From Gammaproteobacteria bacterium TMED112 (GTDB lineage Bacteria > Pseudomonadota > Gammaproteobacteria > Magnimaribacterales > TMED112), in the NCBI GenBank assembly GCA_002170245.2, contig NHFN02000001.1, positions 1 through 61,455 on the forward strand: DNA of 61,455 bases, given 5' to 3'. The notes below the pieces were generated by a model. It had not been told where the DNA came from and searched no databases. It saw only the letters and a list, made by a program, of their open reading frames with translations. A program made the translations under genes and the position numbers. Shown here in pieces: positions 92-29,096 of the stretch; within the stretch, counting starts at the first letter, position 1; every line of letters begins with the position of its first letter.

Positions 92-379
92 TTATTCTAC
101 TGGTGGTTCATTAAATACTTCTTCAATCAACTCTTCACTTACATTTAATGTAAGTTCTTGTTTTGATATGTATGCAAGCAGCAAACAAAGAATAAAGAAA
201 ACAGTTATTAAGCCCCAGGTTAATTTAGAAAAAAAGTTTGAAGGTCCAAGTGGGCCAAACAAAGAATCTGAACTACCGCCGCCAAAAGCAGAGCCTAGGT
301 CAGAACCTTTACCTTGTTGCAACATAATTGAGCCAACAATCATGACAGCCAATATAACTAATAATATCTTGATCAACAT
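92..379 (-). CDS. secG: SecG, preprotein translocase subunit
   Basis: This 95-residue protein is the small, non-essential subunit of the SecYEG channel in the inner membrane, which aids SecA-driven export. Two hydrophobic segments (about residues 2-20 and 51-70) flank a cytoplasmic loop rich in Gly and Ser with the family motif LQQGKG and the repeated GGG/FG residues. It is slightly shorter than the E. coli protein because the C-terminal tail is short. The start overlaps the tpiA stop by 7 bases, so it is the last gene of the carA-to-secG run and is probably translationally coupled to tpiA. Confidence 0.95.
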   Translation of the reverse strand: MLIKILLVILAVMIVGSIMLQQGKGSDLGSAFGGGSSDSLFGPLGPSNFFSKLTWGLITVFFILCLLLAYISKQELTLNVSEELIEEVFNEPPVE

Positions 380-2375: not shown

Positions 2376-4280
2376 TTACGTTCCCTGAATAGGTTTTGAG
2401 GAACTTGAGACTTTAGTTTTCTTTGTTTTATCTTGATCATTATCATCGTTTTTATCTCTTGGAAGTGCGCCTGCCATTATATCTGAAATTTGGTCTTGAT
2501 CTATTGTTTCGTATTTTAATAACGCATCTGCCATGTTGTGTAATTTATCAAGATTTGCTGCAAGGATAGAACCTGCTTTCTCGTAACATGTTTGAATTAT
2601 TGATCTTACTTCATCGTCAATTTGTTTAGCTGTCTCTTCTGAAAAAATCCTTTTTTTAGATCCCGCTGATCTTCCTAGGAATGGATTTTCATCTTCATCA
2701 TCATATTTGAGTGTTCCTAATTTATCAGAGAAACCCCATTTGGTAACCATATTTCTAGCTAAATCTGTTGCTCGTTCAATATCATTGGAAGCTCCAGTTG
2801 TAATACCATCTTTACCATTAATTATCTCTTCAGCTACCCTTCCGCCGAATAAGCTCGTAATTTGACTTTCTAGAGCTGTTTTAGAATAGGTGTATACGTC
2901 TTCTTCTGGCAGAAACATTGTGACCCCTAGAGCCCTTCCTCTTGGTATGATTGTTACTTTATAGACAGGGCTATGTTCGGGGAGATTCAATCCTACAATA
3001 GCATGACCTGCTTCATGATAGGCCGTAAGTTTTTTTTGCTCTTCATTTAGAATCATTGATTTTCTTTCGGAACCCATCATTATTTTGTCTTTCGCAAAAT
3101 CTAATTCAGATTGAGAAACTTTTTTAAGATTTTTTCTTGCTGCCAACAATGCTGCTTCATTTACGAGATTGGCAAGATCTGCACCTGAAAAGCCAGGGGT
3201 ACCCCTTGCTATTACACTTGGTTCAACCGACTTATCTATTGGTACCTTTTTCAAATGTACATTTAATATATGCTCCCTTCCCTTTATGTCTGGCAAACCA
3301 ACCATAACCTGCCTATCGAATCTACCTGGCCTCAGTAGTGCCGCATCCAGGACATCAGGCCTGTTAGTAGCAGCAATAACAATGACTCCTAGGTTTTCTT
3401 CAAATCCGTCCATTTCAACAAGTAACTGATTCAGTGTTTGCTCTCTTTCATCATGCCCTCCACCTAAGCCAGCACCTCTTTGTCTTCCAACTGCATCAAT
3501 CTCGTCTATAAATACAATGCATGGAGAATGTTTCTTAGCTTGCTCGAACATATCTCTAACTCTAGAAGCTCCTACACCAACAAACATTTCTACGAAATCA
3601 GAACCTGAAATAGTGAAAAATGGTACCTTAGCTTCACCAGCAACTGCTCTTGCCAAAAGTGTTTTACCTGTTCCTGGAGGCCCTACCATAAGAATGCCTC
3701 GCGGTATCTTCCCTCCAACCTTTATGAATTTTGCAGGATCTTTAAGGAAGTCAACTAACTCTTTAACATCTTCTTTTGCTTCCTCACAACCAGCAACATC
3801 TGAGAAATTTGTCTTTACATGCCCACCATCCAGTAATTTTGCTTTACTTCTGCCAAAAGTCATTGGACCACCTTTGCCCCCAACGCCTCCTTGCATATTT
3901 CTCATGAAAATAAAAAATATCGCCAACAGAAGTAGTAATGGAAAGGCACCTATAAGGAGTTGTGACCAGACACTTGGTTTTTCTATAGCCTCAAAAGCAA
4001 TTTCTACGTCTGCTTCAGTGAGACTTTCATTTAAATCTTGATCGCTTATGTATGCTGGCTTTTGTGTTGTATATTTTGTTCCGTTGAATCTCTCTACTTC
4101 AACAGTCATCTGATCGCCTTTGTAGATAATTGATTTAACCTTTTTTCCTTTAACCTCTTGCTTAAATTCAGAATATGTTAATTCCTCTTTAAGTGAGGTA
4201 GAAGAATAGTTATCAAGCAGCATGAACATTAAAGTTCCAGCTACCAACCAAAAAAGTATGTTTCTCCCAAAGTTTTTCAT
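2376..4280 (-). CDS. ftsH: FtsH, ATP-dependent zinc metalloprotease
   Basis: FtsH is the membrane-anchored AAA+ protease that degrades damaged membrane proteins and regulators such as LpxC and sigma-32. In its 634 residues two transmembrane segments (about 5-23 and 107-126) bracket a periplasmic domain. Then come Walker A GPPGTGKT (200-207), Walker B with Asp259 and Glu260, the second region of homology with arginines near 317-320, and the protease motif HEAGH at 422-426, with a distal Asp ligand near 500. The length is normal for the family. It follows rlmE by six bases, the conserved rlmE-ftsH pair. Confidence 0.98.
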
Positions 4281-4286
4281 AAATGT

Positions 4287-4865
4287 TTATTTAGGGATTA
4301 ATCCTAACAAATAAACCTCAGCAGAAGAAGTTTTTGAAGCCTCAGGTTTTTCTATGAAAACTTTTTCAAAATAATTTTCAAATCTCATCTTAAGAGTTTT
4401 TAAATTTTGATTCGTAAATGTTTTTATGAGGAGTGCTCCATTCTTATCTAGTATTTTTTTTGATAACTCTAAGCAAAATAAGTTCAATTCTCTATTTGCT
4501 TCATCATCAATTACTCTTATACCAGATAAATTAACTGACATATCGCTTAAAATTAAATCCGCCTTTCTTATTACGGAATTCATACACTCATCAAATTCAG
4601 TGGAGAAAAGATCTAGGTTTTGAAAATGAATGCCTTTTACGTTTTCCATTGGGAGTAAATCAAACGCATAACATTTTGTATTTTTTCTTTTGAGTTTTGT
4701 GATCACTTGTGACCAGCCACCAGGAGCAGAACCTAGTTCAACAATGGTATCTGAGCTTTCAATCAATTTATGCGGCTTGTTAATTTGTATTAATTTATAT
4801 GCGGCTCTAGATCTATACCCTTCTTTTTTTGCCTTTTTAGCCCAAATGTCTTGTATTGCTTTCAA
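4287..4865 (-). CDS. rlmE: 23S rRNA 2'-O-methyltransferase RlmE (FtsJ)
   Basis: RlmE methylates the 2'-OH of U2552 in the A-loop of 23S rRNA during late 50S assembly. The catalytic K-D-K-E tetrad is readable as Lys24 (YRSRAAYKL), Asp108 (ILSDMS), Lys148 (LLIKTF) and Glu183 (SAEVYLLG), with the SAM-binding motif ELGSAPGGW at 44-51. The usual SDMAPN is SDMSVN here. At 192 residues it is short, mainly at the N terminus. The only reasonable start is TTG at 4863-4865, whose bases overlap the greA stop (TTGA), so translation is probably coupled to greA. Confidence 0.95.
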   Translation of the reverse strand: MKAIQDIWAKKAKKEGYRSRAAYKLIQINKPHKLIESSDTIVELGSAPGGWSQVITKLKRKNTKCYAFDLLPMENVKGIHFQNLDLFSTEFDECMNSVIRKADLILSDMSVNLSGIRVIDDEANRELNLFCLELSKKILDKNGALLIKTFTNQNLKTLKMRFENYFEKVFIEKPEASKTSSAEVYLLGLIPK

Positions 4866-19737: not shown

Positions 19738-20141
19738 TGACAGCCACTTTTTTTTCAGGCTTTAAAGATGAACAAACAGCCCTAGCATTCTTGTTAGAGC
19801 AAATTTATGAGGGCTTTCAAATGCAAAGCTCCATTTGTGTGATCTTAAAAGATGAAAAGCATTGCAATGGCTTCAAAAAAGCTCAACAGCAAAAGTATTT
19901 TGAGAATGGAAAAATTGAATATCTTTATGATGCCAATATCTACCTGTTAGATAGCAAGCCAGCTGATAGTTTTGACGAAATCCATATTCTGAGTGATAAG
20001 GTTTTAGAATTACCTACCAGTGCTTGCGAAAATGTTTATGTCTATACAACTAAAGCTGATGAAGACATCACTAAGGCATCTCGCGAGCTTTATGCTAATC
20101 TGAAGAAGAATAATTTTGATTTAAGTCACGAAGCAGTTTAA
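19737..20141 (+). CDS. holC: DNA polymerase III chi subunit
   Basis: HolC links the clamp loader to SSB during replication. The 134-residue protein is the usual size and begins with a beta strand plus FFSGF. The Pfam-type middle (LLEQIYEGFQMQSSICVILKDE) is recognisable, with later conservation weak. The position between pepA and valS, with TAATG overlaps at both ends, makes the assignment safe. The ssb gene encoding its partner is also in this window, at 60957-61379. Confidence 0.88.
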   Translation: MTATFFSGFKDEQTALAFLLEQIYEGFQMQSSICVILKDEKHCNGFKKAQQQKYFENGKIEYLYDANIYLLDSKPADSFDEIHILSDKVLELPTSACENVYVYTTKADEDITKASRELYANLKKNNFDLSHEAV

Positions 20142-22366: not shown

Positions 22367-22395
22367 AAAATAATAAACGCCCTTACAACTGATTG

Positions 22396-23049
22396 ATGGC
22401 AAGCACATTATTAATTGGCGCAAACTCCACAATAGCAAAAGCATTACAAAAAAATTCTGACAGAGAATTTTTAACGTTTTCACGATCAGATGGAACATTA
22501 AATCTAGAAGGTGAATTATCTGAACTAGATGCTATTTCTAATATAAATGGATTGGTATATTTTCCTGGCACAATTAACCTAAAACCTTTCACAATGCTGA
22601 AAGAGGATGATTTTCTAAATGATTTTAAAGTTAATGTTCTAGGTGCCGCTAAAGTCGTAAAAAAAGTTATCAATAAACTCAAAGAAGCTGATGGTGCTAG
22701 TGTGGTATTAATCTCAAGTGTAGCAGCAAATGTTGGCTTACCATTTCATGCCAGCATAGGTGCTTCTAAGTCAGCACTAGAAGGCATGGCTAGATCTCTA
22801 GCAGCAGAATATACCAATGCTAGAGTCTGCTTTAATGTAGTTGCGCCATCGTTAACACAGACTAACCTTTCAACTAATCTTTTGAAAACCGAACGACTAA
22901 TTGAAGCAAGCAAAGAAAGAAATCCAATGAAAGAAATTGGTGATCCAAATAAAATTGCTAAGACGATCGACTTTTTATTAGATGCTCATAATAACTGGAT
23001 GACCGGACAAGTTGTTAGTGTTGATGGCGGCATGAATAACTTAAAGTAA
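22396..23049 (+). CDS. SDR superfamily protein lacking the catalytic tyrosine
   Basis: The 217-residue protein has the Rossmann-fold layout of short-chain dehydrogenases. The glycine-rich loop GANSTIA (8-14) is degenerate. The SDR-like NVLGAAK segment, Ser108 in LISSVAAN and Lys125 in GASKSALEG are present. The position of the catalytic Tyr, four residues before Lys125 and 13 after Ser108, is Ile121. I recall related sequences with a similar HAS-hydrophobic-xASK motif, so this may be a known atypical subfamily rather than damage. ATG 22396 was preferred to the adjacent TTG 22393. It abuts the methyltransferase gene stop to stop. The substrate is unknown. Confidence 0.85.
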   Translation: MASTLLIGANSTIAKALQKNSDREFLTFSRSDGTLNLEGELSELDAISNINGLVYFPGTINLKPFTMLKEDDFLNDFKVNVLGAAKVVKKVINKLKEADGASVVLISSVAANVGLPFHASIGASKSALEGMARSLAAEYTNARVCFNVVAPSLTQTNLSTNLLKTERLIEASKERNPMKEIGDPNKIAKTIDFLLDAHNNWMTGQVVSVDGGMNNLK

Positions 23050-23904
23050 TCAAAGCTTGTTATAGATTATTGCTTCTTTCACCTTAGTTCTTCCCTTTGC
23101 TTTACCTGAAATAAAAGTAGTTTTCTCGGTCTCTCTAAAATGCCAACCATCTTTCTTTTTAAAATAATCTTTTACTAGATCAACTGAGAAATTTGAAATT
23201 AATATAGAGCACTTTGATTTCAATTTATTGGAAATTTCTACCATTCTCTCGAGATCCTCAATCGAAAATTCTTTAGCATTATATTTTCTAAAAGTCTTAT
23301 AGGTTTTACTTTCGTAAGGCCTATCAACATAAGGGGGGTCAAGATATATAAAGTCACCCTTCTTTGCTTTTTTCAAAGTTTCTGAAAAATCACAATTTGT
23401 AAGCTCAAAGTCTTTCAAATTTTTTGCACACTCTTTGAAATACTCTTTGTTCGGAAAGGCAATCTTTTTTCTTCTTCCCACTGGTACATTAAAGCTACCA
23501 GAATTATTTTCTCTATACACACCGTTAAAGCACGTTCGATTTAAATAAATGAATTGGTGTGCGCTGTGCTTTTCCTTAACTCTCTCTGGAATTTCTCCAT
23601 TGAAGGCTTTTCGATTCTCATAATATTGTTCTTCCGTATGATTATTAATTAACTCCATTGAATCTCTATAAACTTTAAGAGGATTGCGTTTCAAAGCTTG
23701 ATAAAAACCGATTAATTTTTCGTTGGTATCAGACAGATATCCCTTTGAAATATTAGGTGCCAATAAATCATTCTGATTATGAAGCGCAAAGAAAAAACTT
23801 CCACCCCCAAGAAAAGGCTCAATATAGTTATTAATTTTAGGAGGAATAAGATCTTGTACTTCCTTATACAACCACTTTTTTCCTCCCGGCCATTTTAGTA
23901 TCAT
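23050..23904 (-). CDS. D12-class N6-adenine DNA methyltransferase
   Basis: This 284-residue SAM-dependent enzyme has the Dam/DpnII-like order. An N-terminal KWPGGK motif precedes the SAM site FLGGG (31-35), the target-recognition region follows with FLNRTCFNGVYRENN-like residues (about 119-134), and the catalytic motif DPPY is at 189-192. All key residues look intact. It has no obvious dedicated operon partner on its strand. It is head-to-head with the 876-residue nuclease/DGQHR gene across 16 bases, which suggests joint regulation of a modification and a nuclease function. The recognition sequence cannot be read from the protein. Confidence 0.93.
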   Translation of the reverse strand: MILKWPGGKKWLYKEVQDLIPPKINNYIEPFLGGGSFFFALHNQNDLLAPNISKGYLSDTNEKLIGFYQALKRNPLKVYRDSMELINNHTEEQYYENRKAFNGEIPERVKEKHSAHQFIYLNRTCFNGVYRENNSGSFNVPVGRRKKIAFPNKEYFKECAKNLKDFELTNCDFSETLKKAKKGDFIYLDPPYVDRPYESKTYKTFRKYNAKEFSIEDLERMVEISNKLKSKCSILISNFSVDLVKDYFKKKDGWHFRETEKTTFISGKAKGRTKVKEAIIYNKL

Positions 23905-23920
23905 AAAAGTACATATTATT

Positions 23921-26551
23921 ATGGAGAATTTTACTTACAATCACTACATAGATTTTTCAATTAAAGAAGATAATGACTTTCTTGAAAAAGATAAGCTTGA
24001 AGTGCGCCCTAATAGCAAAATTAGACAAGCAGAACTTGAAGAAAAAGCTAAAGAGAGACTTCACAAAAAAAGATTATCTAAAAGAAGAGGAGATTTAACA
24101 GATGGCCAATATTTAGGTTACAAATTTGAAAAGGAAATGTGGAACTGGTTACTCAAACTTAAACCACAAATAGTAAACCATCCCGGTTATGATCTAAACT
24201 TAGATCTTAAAGGGTATAAGATTGACTCATCCATCTCAAAACCTTATCAGAACACAAAACAAACAGATGTATTTGCAACTTTTAATGACCATGTTTTTAT
24301 AGTTGAGTGTAAAGCTACTGCGGAAAATGCAAATTTCTCCGTCTTGAAAAAAGAAATGCAACTACTAAGAGCTTTAATGCAACATAAGAATAAACGTGTT
24401 GAAAAACTTTTTGGTGAAAGAGCTATTCCAATACATATTGTTGCTCTAAAAGGGTATGAAATATCAGAAGAACAAAAATCTGAAGAATTATCTAATGAAG
24501 GTGGGTCAATAATCATACTTTCTGAAAAAGAGAGAAAATATATAGATATAGTCCTTGAAAGCAGCACAAGTGAAGAATTTGCATTAAACCAATTTCTTGG
24601 ATTTTTTAGAACCGGAAGACCTGATTTTAATAAATGGGTTTTGAATGGGAAGACCAACACATATCAGAAGAAAAAATTTAAAATTGCTGCATTCTCGTCT
24701 AACTCAGGAACAGGAAGGAAACAAAATGTGTATACATTTTCAATAGAACCAAGAGACATGTTAAAGATTTCAACAGTGTCTCATCAGAAAGCAAAAAATA
24801 TTTTCGAATTTGGACGTTCAAGTGGAAAGTACTATCAAAGATTATTGACAGGTAAAAGATTAAATGAAATTGGTGCTCACCTCACAACACATAAGACCCC
24901 TTTTCCGAACAACATACTTGTTAGCCACAGAGGTAAAAGAAAGCTCACCTTTGAACCTGATCCAATTAATGAAAATACAAACAGTGGGAGAAGACCAGGT
25001 AAATTAGTTTTTGATGGCTGTCCAGGAACATTTCATGTTATTGACGGACAACATAGATTATTTGGATATATGGCAGTTAGCCCTAAAGAAGGCGGCTTGA
25101 GAGATAAACATAGATTGATTGTGACGGTATTTGACGAACTTGAAGTTGGTGAAGAAGCTGATATTTTTCTGGAAGTTAATGAAAAAAGTCAAAAAGTAAA
25201 ATCTGATTTAATAATGGAAATTGAATACGCTGCTGAAACACCCTCGAAATCAAATCTTTGTAATGGGGTAATATTTAACTTGAGAGATGATCCCAATTCA
25301 ACACTTTATGACCGAATAGCTCCAGCAGAGGAAAAAAGAAAAAAAGGTCTTCAGCCATGGGATATTAAACCAACAGATCTTAAAAATATATTAATGAAAT
25401 GCTTGATGATTGGAGGTGAAAATTATGAAAGAGGGTTATTTTGGGATACCAACTATAACATTACAGCTAAAAAAATAGCTCATCATATCAATTCAATGTT
25501 AAAAGTGATCAGAGATAGATCTGGATATTGGCATAATAATATTCCTCCTAGACATAAAAGCGCAGTCTGGTACACCGATGATATGGGGAAAAATAGCAAG
25601 GGCTTTCTACAAAATATTTTAACTAAAGGGCTTTTAAAATTAATTGATCGAATCACAATCTGGTGTGAAAAAAATTACAACCTTAAGAATGAAAAGCTTA
25701 CTAGTAAATGCAATGAAATAATGATGGAAATTACTCAGAACTTTAATAAGAAAAGTCCCAGAGAACGATATACGTTTTTTGAAATGAGAAATAAATACGG
25801 CCAAGGTGAGCAAGCTATTGATCTTGTTAGTTCATTATTTCTTACAGAATTTCTTGATGATGAAAAGTATCCTGGCCTCATAACTGATATCGATAGAAAT
25901 AGGGTTGATAACACTGAAAAGGCATCTGGTAAAGAGTACGAAAATGCTATGCTCAGAATTGAGGAGCTTGAAGCACAAATAAAGGATATGTCTGGACCAA
26001 GTGAGATAGCGCAAGCACTTGAAGGTGTTTTTAGATCAAAAATTCCTTATGTTTTTGCAAAATTATTTGGACCAAAATATTTCAGTGATATTAAAGGAGT
26101 TTTTTATAGAGAAAGAGTGCTTAGAGCAAAACTTGATAAAGCCATGGATAGAGTTAGGGAAGCAGAAAAGGTTTTAAAAGGTGATCCTGATCCGGAAAGA
26201 GGAATGCATGATCATGAGATGGAATATCTTGAATGGGTAGATTGGATTGAGATAATAGCTGAACTAATAAAAAGAAAAGATGTGTATAAAAAAGAATATA
26301 TGAACCCAACTATTAAAGAAGATTTGGAAGATATCATAAGAAGAGTTTTTTATGTAGATAACATCAAAGACACAAAGAGCTGTAATTATAGAGAAGGCAC
26401 AAACTGGATGTCAGTTTATAATGAGCTTAGAAGACCGGGAGTCCACAGAGGAACAGCTAAACTTACACCAACACAAATAAAAAAACTTGAGGAATTAGAG
26501 CCAAAGGTAAAAGAAAAAATTCGATTAATGACTGATTTCTATATGCTATAA
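23921..26551 (+). CDS. PD-(D/E)xK nuclease-like and DGQHR domain fusion protein
   Basis: This 876-residue protein is large and composite. Residues about 55-190 look like a restriction-endonuclease fold: Asp116 in TDVFATF, then Glu129-x-Lys131 in IVECKAT. Residues about 255-480 form a DGQHR (DndB-like) domain, with DGQHR exactly at 375-379 in FHVIDGQHRLFGY and the trailing FLEVNEKSQKVKSDLI. DGQHR proteins are linked to phosphorothioate and 7-deazapurine DNA modification systems. The C-terminal 390 residues hold helical segments with a predicted coiled coil (about 670-760). A motif RRPGVH at 837-842 fits the R-x4-H pattern of HEPN RNases. The combined function is unknown; a modification-dependent nuclease is inference. 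Confidence 0.8.
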   Translation: MENFTYNHYIDFSIKEDNDFLEKDKLEVRPNSKIRQAELEEKAKERLHKKRLSKRRGDLTDGQYLGYKFEKEMWNWLLKLKPQIVNHPGYDLNLDLKGYKIDSSISKPYQNTKQTDVFATFNDHVFIVECKATAENANFSVLKKEMQLLRALMQHKNKRVEKLFGERAIPIHIVALKGYEISEEQKSEELSNEGGSIIILSEKERKYIDIVLESSTSEEFALNQFLGFFRTGRPDFNKWVLNGKTNTYQKKKFKIAAFSSNSGTGRKQNVYTFSIEPRDMLKISTVSHQKAKNIFEFGRSSGKYYQRLLTGKRLNEIGAHLTTHKTPFPNNILVSHRGKRKLTFEPDPINENTNSGRRPGKLVFDGCPGTFHVIDGQHRLFGYMAVSPKEGGLRDKHRLIVTVFDELEVGEEADIFLEVNEKSQKVKSDLIMEIEYAAETPSKSNLCNGVIFNLRDDPNSTLYDRIAPAEEKRKKGLQPWDIKPTDLKNILMKCLMIGGENYERGLFWDTNYNITAKKIAHHINSMLKVIRDRSGYWHNNIPPRHKSAVWYTDDMGKNSKGFLQNILTKGLLKLIDRITIWCEKNYNLKNEKLTSKCNEIMMEITQNFNKKSPRERYTFFEMRNKYGQGEQAIDLVSSLFLTEFLDDEKYPGLITDIDRNRVDNTEKASGKEYENAMLRIEELEAQIKDMSGPSEIAQALEGVFRSKIPYVFAKLFGPKYFSDIKGVFYRERVLRAKLDKAMDRVREAEKVLKGDPDPERGMHDHEMEYLEWVDWIEIIAELIKRKDVYKKEYMNPTIKEDLEDIIRRVFYVDNIKDTKSCNYREGTNWMSVYNELRRPGVHRGTAKLTPTQIKKLEELEPKVKEKIRLMTDFYML

Positions 26552-26971
26552 ATTTACCTCAATAGTTACAAGGCTAAGCTCTTTCCACATTTTTATTAAT
26601 TCGTAATCATTTTCAAATACACAATAGATTTCATCAGATTTGAAGTTTTTTTCAAAAATCTCTTTTTTTATTTCCAGCTTATTTCTTTGATCACCGTCAT
26701 TCCTCATAAGTAATTTAAAGTCAAAGTCAAAGTGTTCTTTTAGCCAAAGCGTCGTACTATATCTGTATCTTTCAGGTCGACCAGTAAGAAAAACTATTTC
26801 TTTATCACTAACCTGTTCTTGAATAACTTTATCAATAATAGTTTGGATCGGTAGATCATTCACTAGTTCTGAAAAAAACCCATCCCAGTCTTTTTTGCCC
26901 TCTAAAAAATGTTGGCGATGATCGTTATTAGCAACAGTGCCATCGATATCACACAGAATAATATTTGCCAT
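26546..26971 (-). CDS. HAD-type polynucleotide 3'-phosphatase-like protein
   Basis: The 141-residue protein resembles the phosphatase half of phage T4 polynucleotide kinase. Motif I is CDIDGTVANNDHR (Asp8 and Asp10), motif II is FLTGRPERYR (about 60-69) and the basic residue region RNKLEIKKEIF follows near 95. The usual motif IV Asp-Asp-Arg is Glu120-Asn121-Asp122 (FENDYELIKMW), which may reduce or alter catalysis. It is convergent with the nuclease/DGQHR gene and overlaps its end by 6 bases. Such enzymes remove 3'-phosphates or 2',3'-cyclic phosphates; the substrate here is not known. Confidence 0.72.
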   Translation of the reverse strand: MANIILCDIDGTVANNDHRQHFLEGKKDWDGFFSELVNDLPIQTIIDKVIQEQVSDKEIVFLTGRPERYRYSTTLWLKEHFDFDFKLLMRNDGDQRNKLEIKKEIFEKNFKSDEIYCVFENDYELIKMWKELSLVTIEVNL

Positions 26972-27020
26972 AAAGTTATTAGTGAAATTGTAGTTTTTTT
27001 ATAGTGATTTAGCTAAAGAT

Positions 27021-27542
27021 TTAGACGCCTAAAGCTACTTTCTTTAATTGAATGCTTCTGTAGAGCTCGTCAAAATCAACTTGGGTAAATTTGTCGTTAT
27101 CCTGTAAAACTGTCTCAAGCATAGCTTCAATTTGTTGGAAATGGTCAGAAGTTTGTGCATCACGCAAAGTTTGTGAAAAAACCCGCCTAACCCAGTCGAT
27201 ATCCGAATAGCTTGAGCTGCCTGAAATTGTCTTCAGAGCTTGTATTTTTGTGTTGAAGTTATGATCTTCCTCCAGCTCAAAAGAATCGTCCTTTGCTTGC
27301 ATTAAAGTATACTTACCCGGGATTGAATATCCATCAGCATTGAGTAACTTAAATTCAACGTTAAACATGATTGAAAGGGTTTGCTCTACTTCCCTAACTG
27401 TAAGATCATCTCTTAATTCAAAATTATCAATTTTATGTGGTTTGCTTGGGGCATTTATTGGAACAAAGCTACATCCCAAAGAGCAATGCTCTTTGAGATG
27501 TTTCTTTATTAGTACTAAGGAAGTATTAACTGATATTAACAC
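27021..27542 (-). CDS. Hypothetical protein, second gene of a two-gene operon
   Basis: I do not recognise this 173-residue protein. Residues about 40-85 (DDLTVREVEQTLSIMFNVEFKLLN) could form a small ubiquitin-like beta-grasp unit, and the C-terminal half is helical and acidic. The only available start is GTG 27542, three bases after the stop of the upstream gene, without a clear Shine-Dalgarno sequence, so its translation is probably coupled. A strong inverted repeat (27471-27501) lies within its first codons. It is not secreted and has no membrane segment. Confidence in the start is low, in the gene moderate. Confidence 0.6.
   Translation of the reverse strand: MLISVNTSLVLIKKHLKEHCSLGCSFVPINAPSKPHKIDNFELRDDLTVREVEQTLSIMFNVEFKLLNADGYSIPGKYTLMQAKDDSFELEEDHNFNTKIQALKTISGSSSYSDIDWVRRVFSQTLRDAQTSDHFQQIEAMLETVLQDNDKFTQVDFDELYRSIQLKKVALGV
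27471..27501. repeat. Inverted repeat of 14-base arms inside a gene
   Basis: The arms ACATCCCAAAGAGC (27471-27484) and GCTCTTTGAGATGT (27488-27501) are complementary with a single mismatch and are separated by three bases. The repeat lies within the 5' part of the 173-residue gene, so it is transcribed and would form a hairpin in its mRNA. There is no U tract directly downstream on either strand. It could be a protein-binding site, an mRNA translation-control hairpin or a relic of an insertion. It is the strongest such structure I found outside RNA genes. Confidence 0.75.
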
Positions 27543-27545
27543 TAA

Positions 27546-28274
27546 TTAGTCGTCTGATGGTACAGGTGTAGCTTCAGCTGTATAAGTCTCAATCGGGACA
27601 AAAACAGATGCCGTTACGTTGATTGTGCCATTTTTAATTTTTCCTGGTTTTAGACCCCAGAAGCTTGGAGTAAAAGTCATTGATGACTTGGCTGGAAGCT
27701 CTCTATAATCCATTGTATCTTCCAACTGCGCGTCTCTTTGATCCATAAGCTTTAGAGTTGTCTGAGCACGGGCTATGTAAGAATCTGAAGTATTTCTGAT
27801 GCTTGTGGTCATTTCAAACTCTGCATCACCATCGTCTGAATTTTTCATTCTTAAAACACTCATTCCCATAATCTCCGCAACGCCACCAATTGAGATATTT
27901 TTCTTTATCTCAGACATGTCGCCTTCATTTTCAGGTATGTCTAAAACACCTACCTTGATAAACTCTCTTCTGTAAGAAGTCATATGTACTAATGCTTTGC
28001 AATCCGCACCAGTTCCAGATCCAAATTTGTCTTTATGAACACTCTGCCAACTCAACAGATCAACATCTCCTGAATCTTTTGAGGCTATAAAAACTCTATC
28101 ATCTTCATTTTCACTACCACCAACAGCTACATCGTTTTCGTTGAGCATGATGATGGAAGTCTTTACAAATTCAACATCGTGATCAGAAGTATTTTCCAGT
28201 ACTCCTGCCATTTCAAAATTAATAGTCCCGTAGTCATTATCGGGTTTATCGTAAGTAAATTTTGTTACTTTCAT
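27546..28274 (-). CDS. Hypothetical protein with two tandem beta-rich repeats
   Basis: The 242-residue protein has no signal peptide or membrane segment. It looks internally duplicated: residues about 5-115 (INFEMAGVLENTSDHDVEFVKTS) and about 120-235 (AEFEMTTSIRNTSDSYIARAQTT) share the pattern of an FEM strand, an N-T-S-D turn and an aromatic or serine core, suggesting two beta-sandwich domains. No family is recognised. It starts with ATG 28274, preceded by GGAG seven bases upstream, and has a promoter at 28314-28342. It heads an operon with the 173-residue protein, so the two probably act together. Confidence 0.7.
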   Translation of the reverse strand: MKVTKFTYDKPDNDYGTINFEMAGVLENTSDHDVEFVKTSIIMLNENDVAVGGSENEDDRVFIASKDSGDVDLLSWQSVHKDKFGSGTGADCKALVHMTSYRREFIKVGVLDIPENEGDMSEIKKNISIGGVAEIMGMSVLRMKNSDDGDAEFEMTTSIRNTSDSYIARAQTTLKLMDQRDAQLEDTMDYRELPAKSSMTFTPSFWGLKPGKIKNGTINVTASVFVPIETYTAEATPVPSDD

Positions 28275-28313
28275 GTGTAATCTCCGTTTGCACTTTTTTA
28301 AGAGCGAAAGATA

Positions 28314-28342
28314 ATTTTATGTATTTTTACAAGACATTGCAA
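28314..28342 (-). promoter_or_regulatory. Sigma-70-like promoter of the two-gene unknown operon
   Basis: On the minus strand TTGCAA (28337-28342) is a plausible -35 and TAAAAT (28314-28319) a plausible -10, separated by exactly 17 bases and lying about 40 bases before ATG 28274. It is among the few well-formed promoters readable by eye here, in a gap of about 100 bases. Confidence 0.6.
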
Positions 28343-28373
28343 TGAAACTGTGAGGGACTAAAGTTAAGAATTA

Positions 28374-29096
28374 CTAATCCAAAAGCTTAGTTGAATCTCT
28401 TTGAGCTACTTCCCAACGCGATTTTAAATAATTGCAATGTGGACAGTTTTTTGCTGATTTTGGCATCTCGCCCTGAAGTGTTTTAAGAGCTGCTAAAATA
28501 GCGTCTTCTACCCAGTCACAATTGCACTCGAGTTTAACTAAATGTAAATCAAACTCTAATCTCTGATTAAACATAGGTTCATTTTTTTTGCCGTTGAAGT
28601 AAACCAGATATGCTTCTGGGGCAACCTCAAAACCATTTTTTTTGAATAGCCATTGATACATTTCTAGTTGTCTTTGATAGCCTTTGGCATATTCCCACTT
28701 AGAATATGTATCCTCCCAGTCAAATATTTTTTTTGCTGTAGCTTTGACATCAACAATAATCAATTCACCAGAAGGCTTTTGCCAAACATCATCGACGGCA
28801 CCACCAAAATTAAAACCTGCAGTCTCATCAATATATCTAATACCTCTATAATTTTCTCGCCATTCATCCATCTTTTCATGAGCAAAAGGGACAGCATCTA
28901 TACCATGCTCAAGAAACATTGGGTGAGGCTCTCCTTTTGCACGATAGTAATCAAACTCATTTTTGCAAAGACCATCGACAGCTGTATTTAATGTAAAGGG
29001 CAAACTAAAAGGTCTAATTTTATGGTTGTAAGCTAAATAAAAGCATTTTTGACAATTTATATGTTGCTCTACTGCGGATCTACTAATTTTTTGCAT
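28374..29096 (-). CDS. PD-(D/E)xK nuclease of the RecB/Cas4-like superfamily
   Basis: The 240-residue protein carries the superfamily residues Asp102 or 103 (GGAVDDVW), Asp116-x-Lys118 (IVDVKAT) and the Gln-x3-Tyr motif (QLEMY, Gln143-Tyr147). Cysteine pairs C15/C18 at the N terminus and C218/C221 at the C terminus resemble the iron-sulfur cluster ligands of Cas4 and AddB nucleases. No CRISPR repeats or other cas genes are in the window. The function is unknown; DNA end processing or defence is inference. The 3' end of the ElaA gene overlaps its start by 14 bases. Confidence 0.75.
   Translation of the reverse strand: MQKISRSAVEQHINCQKCFYLAYNHKIRPFSLPFTLNTAVDGLCKNEFDYYRAKGEPHPMFLEHGIDAVPFAHEKMDEWRENYRGIRYIDETAGFNFGGAVDDVWQKPSGELIIVDVKATAKKIFDWEDTYSKWEYAKGYQRQLEMYQWLFKKNGFEVAPEAYLVYFNGKKNEPMFNQRLEFDLHLVKLECNCDWVEDAILAALKTLQGEMPKSAKNCPHCNYLKSRWEVAQRDSTKLLD

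Follow-up and report, generated by a model that had tools for sequence, protein, structure and literature searches.

A rare two-gene unit carried at an integration hotspot in a genus of marine Gammaproteobacteria, pairing a tandem FxLYD-like protein with a partner of no known family

Proteins with the FxLYD domain (NCBIfam NF038353) are usually exported or lipid-anchored. The gene pair described here lies in a window of 61,455 nt (the whole stretch of DNA that was analysed) from the gammaproteobacterium TMED112, and its first member, gene 1, scores above the curated cut-off of the FxLYD profile but differs from such proteins in lacking a signal peptide, in its tandem duplication and in being paired with a second gene, gene 2. 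In structure, gene 1 is also like LEA14 (PDB 1xo8), with a VIA-align Z of 9.1 and an rmsd of 3.2 over 111 residues; however, the identity is 12%, LEA14 has a single domain and no functional link to gene 1, and unrelated Ig-like sandwiches tie with it at Z 8-10. The double beta-sandwich of arrestin and Spo0M resembles gene 1 in having two consecutive sandwiches, and arrestins head the Foldseek matches by E-value (6e-6). The domain arrangement is nevertheless different, because superposition of the whole chain gives a TM-score of only about 0.2 and an rmsd of about 25 A; the arrestin matches were rejected as homology on this TM-score, and no Spo0M or arrestin profile was found in gene 1 among Pfam matches at E<1. 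Finally, a module of a D12 methyltransferase, a DGQHR protein and a HAD phosphatase, known from a related locus (L024), shares its integration site and flanking genes with the pair of the window, while each of the two occurs without the other.

The earlier note had reported two adjacent reading frames of 242 and 173 residues, three bases apart, and both are present (Table 1). Three copies of the pair are known, namely the window, L006 and G031 (SCGC AAA168-P09), and in all three the two genes are adjacent, with identical gene order, GTG start of gene 2 and 3-nt gap. Compared with the window, L006 is 85% identical for gene 1 and 66% for gene 2, and G031 55% and 32%, respectively; gene 2 evolves faster than gene 1, while the 85% of gene 1 lies above the 61-75% of the flanking core genes. 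Judged from its substitutions, which fall 28/21/100 on the three codon positions, gene 1 is under purifying selection. These data support the view that genes 1 and 2, whose proteins are uncharacterised, are inherited together as a unit; their co-occurrence rests on three observations.

Table 1. Positions of the gene pair, its parts and its surroundings in the window
Feature	Position	Strand	Description	Basis
Gene 1	27546..28274	-	242 aa, ATG start	ORF listing
Gene 1 domains	about residues 1-118 and 119-242		Two tandem FxLYD/LEA14-like beta-sandwiches	Internal duplication, NCBIfam, AlphaFold2
Gene 2	27021..27542	-	173 aa, GTG start	ORF listing
Gene 2 parts (predicted)	residues about 1-84; 85-123; about 96-171		N-terminal alpha/beta domain; conserved low-confidence segment; helical bundle	AlphaFold2
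RNA hairpin	27471..27501	-	14 bp; about codons 14-24 of gene 2, within its first 25 codons	
Promoter TTGCAA-17-TAAAAT	28314..28342	-	9/12 consensus bases	
Accessory insert	23050..28274	.	D12 MTase, DGQHR protein, HAD phosphatase, gene 2, gene 1; in 17 loci of the same genus the interval holds nothing or has other contents	
SDR gene (core flank)	22393-23049			
Cas4-like PD-(D/E)XK gene, PF12705 (core flank)	28374-29096			

Homologues were searched for in 203 genomes of the order, 369 class-level and 398 phylum-level genomes, viral contigs, phages and plasmids. Gene 1 and gene 2 are each found in the same two of the 203 order genomes, this one (1.02 Mb) and G031, which belongs to another family of the order. 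The third copy, L006, comes from a Red Sea MAG that carries the label Woeseiaceae, on a contig of 5.3 kb; this contig may be misbinned, since its neighbouring Cas4-like and GNAT genes share 75% and 61% identity with their counterparts in the window. Apart from the window's own genome, gene 1 was found in none of the class-level or phylum-level genomes, and neither gene has a homologue in the viral contigs, phage records or plasmid records. For gene 2 the class-level genomes gave one weak match (G394, E=8e-5), which was judged to be chance, being to a large sensor/HD-domain-type protein over residues 83-156 only. A family of small two-repeat proteins ('MTVKELKKEF...') was also considered and was dropped as no match was found, and the conserved pattern FWGLKPGK has three matches in viral sequences, all unrelated. 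The pair is a genuine and rare two-gene unit, which these searches place within a single order of marine gammaproteobacteria, save for the contig labelled Woeseiaceae. This order may correspond to SAR86.

The product of gene 1 is acidic (pI 4.55, gravy -0.45), and by inspection its N-terminus, MKVTKFTYDKPDNDYG, has no hydrophobic signal segment. Two tandem beta-sandwich-like repeats had been proposed for it, and the proposal is borne out: the best half-to-half score is 60, against 29 ± 5.2 in shuffled sequences (0/1000 as high), with the same signal in L006 and a weaker one in G031 (10/1000 shuffles), and AlphaFold2 predicts an all-beta protein with pLDDT 81.1 and pTM 0.70. The FxLYD match has E=3e-6 and 27 bits against a cut-off of 23, with its best stretch at residues 157-191. 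Gene 1 is thus an internal duplication of FxLYD/LEA14-like Ig-type sandwiches. Its structural neighbours are assorted Ig-like sandwiches at Z 8-10 (GH2 glycosidase domains, LEA14, transglutaminase), and a fold common to the model and to such a variety of proteins does not indicate a function. A sequence search of the PDB gave nothing, and no PADLOC model matches gene 1. Across the three sequences the highest conservation is at residues 61-70 and 201-210, with nine of ten positions invariant in each.

Gene 2 has no family in Pfam or PHROGs, and the same holds for gene 1, so that the statement that neither protein belongs to a known family stands for these two collections, while the FxLYD score above the NCBIfam cut-off goes against it for gene 1. 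The AlphaFold2 model of gene 2 (pLDDT 78.6, pTM 0.49) shows two successive beta-alpha-beta units over residues 2-67, followed by a helical bundle. A possible ubiquitin-like unit had been suggested here, and it finds no support: no ubiquitin-like family is among the Pfam matches at E<10. As to the beta-beta-alpha-beta-beta fold of a beta-grasp, residues 2-67 of the model read as the two beta-alpha-beta units, and the structure search was dominated by the helical part. Foldseek returned nothing at E<0.001 in PDB or BFVD, there is no convincing structural neighbour, and the best PADLOC model (PDC-S14, E=0.014, 12.4 bits) is counted as no match. Conservation among the three sequences is highest at residues 65-85 and 93-123. 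Several conserved segments of both proteins coincide with low pLDDT, and they may mark an interface, or may reflect only the thinness of a three-sequence alignment.

Close to the start of gene 2 lies an RNA hairpin; when the window was scanned on both strands in steps of 3 nt, no other 36-nt element was as stable. The 121-nt region around it has a z of -6.55, and synonymous shuffles are equally stable in 2/2000 and 0/2000 cases, for a segment chosen post hoc. L006 retains the hairpin, with one compensatory pair of synonymous changes (CAT/GGA to CAC/GGG), and gene 2 of G031 lacks it; in Rfam there are only sub-threshold chance matches. An intrinsic terminator is possible but was not adopted as the explanation; against it stand the weak T tail (AGCTTTGTTC) and the position of the hairpin within a reading frame that no copy interrupts. 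If gene 2 is shorter, the hairpin may instead act like an attenuator between it and gene 1. Between the window and L006, substitutions over codons 1-36 of gene 2 are flat by codon position (11/12/13), whereas those over codons 37-173 are 33/18/78 (chi-square p = 0.01 between the two parts). The GTG is at the same place in the three copies, the first 28 codons are ungapped, no alternative start is common to all of them, and residues 1-30 are modelled with confidence. We keep the GTG start tentatively; the flat substitution pattern of the first 36 codons makes the exact start of gene 2 less certain than the earlier note has it.

Upstream of gene 1, the hexamers and the 17-base spacer of the promoter described in the earlier note as strong and well formed are indeed present. 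Its strength appears ordinary, as it matches the consensus in 9 of 12 bases and the region holds 9 promoter-like sites against 8.8 in shuffles, which is no excess. All three copies, L006 and L005 among them, have the pattern TTGCAA-16/17-TA(N2)AT upstream of gene 1, at a distance of 28-41 nt from its ATG; it occurs in 1-4 of 5000 mononucleotide shuffles per copy, for a motif defined post hoc. In addition, a 10-bp palindrome, CATTGCAATG (28335-28344), contains the TTGCAA -35 hexamer and is also found ahead of gene 1 in L006; the window has a second copy of it at 19860. The palindrome is possibly an operator.

The surroundings of the pair were compared with 17 loci of the same genus. The Cas4-like gene is present in all 17, and in nearly all it is flanked, within the reach of the contigs, by GNAT-GPx-rimI-tilS-accA-dnaE and by SDR-valS, so that it belongs to the core genes of this genus. 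The pair had been placed between the phosphatase and this nuclease, inside an accessory block, and it does lie in a variable insert, but the Cas4-like gene is outside it. Between SDR and the Cas4-like gene the interval is directly closed in six loci (L010, L012, L014, L015, L017 and L020), while others hold an MrcB-N protein (L011), D12-DGQHR-HAD (L024, 3500-7810), a C5 DNA methylase (L023 and L026, where the Cas4-like gene has moved), or single exported- or redox-type proteins (L016, L022, L025; exported-type in L016 and L025). This interval (22393-29096 in the window) is an integration hotspot in the genus, with defence-type cargo in relatives. Among its other contents, DUF4116, a DUF2201 VWA protein and a MoxR-like AAA protein are found in both L013 (2561-9607, with WYL in addition) and L019 (9282-13809), and are a candidate multi-gene conflict or stress system. 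The D12-DGQHR-HAD set recurs as a unit in L024, with DGQHR proteins only 30% identical, which suggests a modification module.

Both the window and the L006 copies of the pair directly adjoin the Cas4-like gene at this hotspot. The neighbours in L006 are an ion channel, an M48-TerB protein and a PDDEXK_3 protein; the M48 peptidase with its C-terminal TerB domain occupies 3354-4673 of the contig. In G031 the pair sits elsewhere, next to GmrSD, a Cas4-like/RNase H nuclease, an NT5C HAD protein and DUF4116. The best reading of these contexts is that the pair moves horizontally between variable islands as self-contained cargo.

As for function, our leading explanation, held tentatively and with a little less than even confidence, is a self-contained mobile pair with its own promoter, carried at a hotspot, whose products probably form a complex in phage conflict or stress. 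The pair would be transcribed from this promoter and carried as cargo next to the core Cas4-like gene, in a chromosomal hotspot that collects restriction, modification and MoxR/VWA-type genes. Its products would be cytoplasmic and would most likely work jointly. In this view gene 1, through its FxLYD duplication, would form a rigid scaffold of two Ig-type sandwiches for binding, and gene 2, the faster-evolving partner, would dock with its segment 85-123, conserved though modelled with low confidence, onto two conserved loops in gene 1 (61-70 and 201-211). Their most likely role would lie in conflict with phages or in a stress response associated with it. The defence-type contents of the hotspot in relatives argue for this role, as do GmrSD and the Cas4-like/RNase H nuclease in the G031 island; against it are the lack of an enzymatic motif, of a toxin or defence family in PADLOC and of phage-borne copies, and the non-defence cargo (exported-type proteins) at the hotspot in L016 and L025. 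It is rather doubtful that the pair is a new two-protein anti-phage or stress module made of a cytoplasmic tandem FxLYD sandwich and a no-family partner, with the output of gene 2 set by the hairpin in its 5' coding region.

Among the alternatives, a Ter-like or MoxR/VWA-associated stress module (metal, envelope or protein quality) that has no more than its place in the hotspot in common with defence genes would fit the M48 peptidase-TerB protein and ion channel beside the L006 copy, the DUF4116 beside the G031 copy, and the DUF4116, DUF2201 VWA, AAA and WYL genes in the same hotspot of L013. We consider it unlikely, with no TerD, TerB, AAA or VWA gene in the window island and different neighbours in every copy. 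The two-gene organization with a 3-nt gap, the different islands and the patchy distribution are also what a type II toxin-antitoxin-like pair with one fast-evolving partner would show; such a pair is improbable here, as no toxin or antitoxin domain was found in either protein in Pfam, NCBIfam or PADLOC, a DNA-binding antitoxin domain included, both proteins are larger than usual, and the well-conserved gene is an Ig-type sandwich and no enzyme. About as improbable would be passive passengers, or a housekeeping-type binding protein without a conflict role, which the mere three copies, the weak structural leads and the mixed cargo of the hotspots would allow, while purifying selection on gene 1 and a linkage kept across two families of the order speak against them. 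The weakest is the proposal of the earlier note that the pair is an accessory part of the neighbouring D12-DGQHR-HAD locus, which it adjoins in the window with HAD, gene 2 and gene 1 on one strand: it is very improbable, because L024 lacks the pair but has D12 (74%), DGQHR (30%) and HAD (61%) at this site, and L006 (a contig of 5.3 kb, so that the rest of its genome may carry D12/DGQHR) and G031 have the pair without D12 or DGQHR at the locus.

With the mobile pair preferred as cargo of the hotspot, the analysis sets an uncharacterised two-gene unit apart from its neighbours and locates a cargo site of the host lineage. Since the hosts are mostly uncultured, streamlined marine bacteria, and the hotspot holds restriction genes, VWA/MoxR genes and unknown pairs, it is a defined place in which to seek phage-resistance genes.
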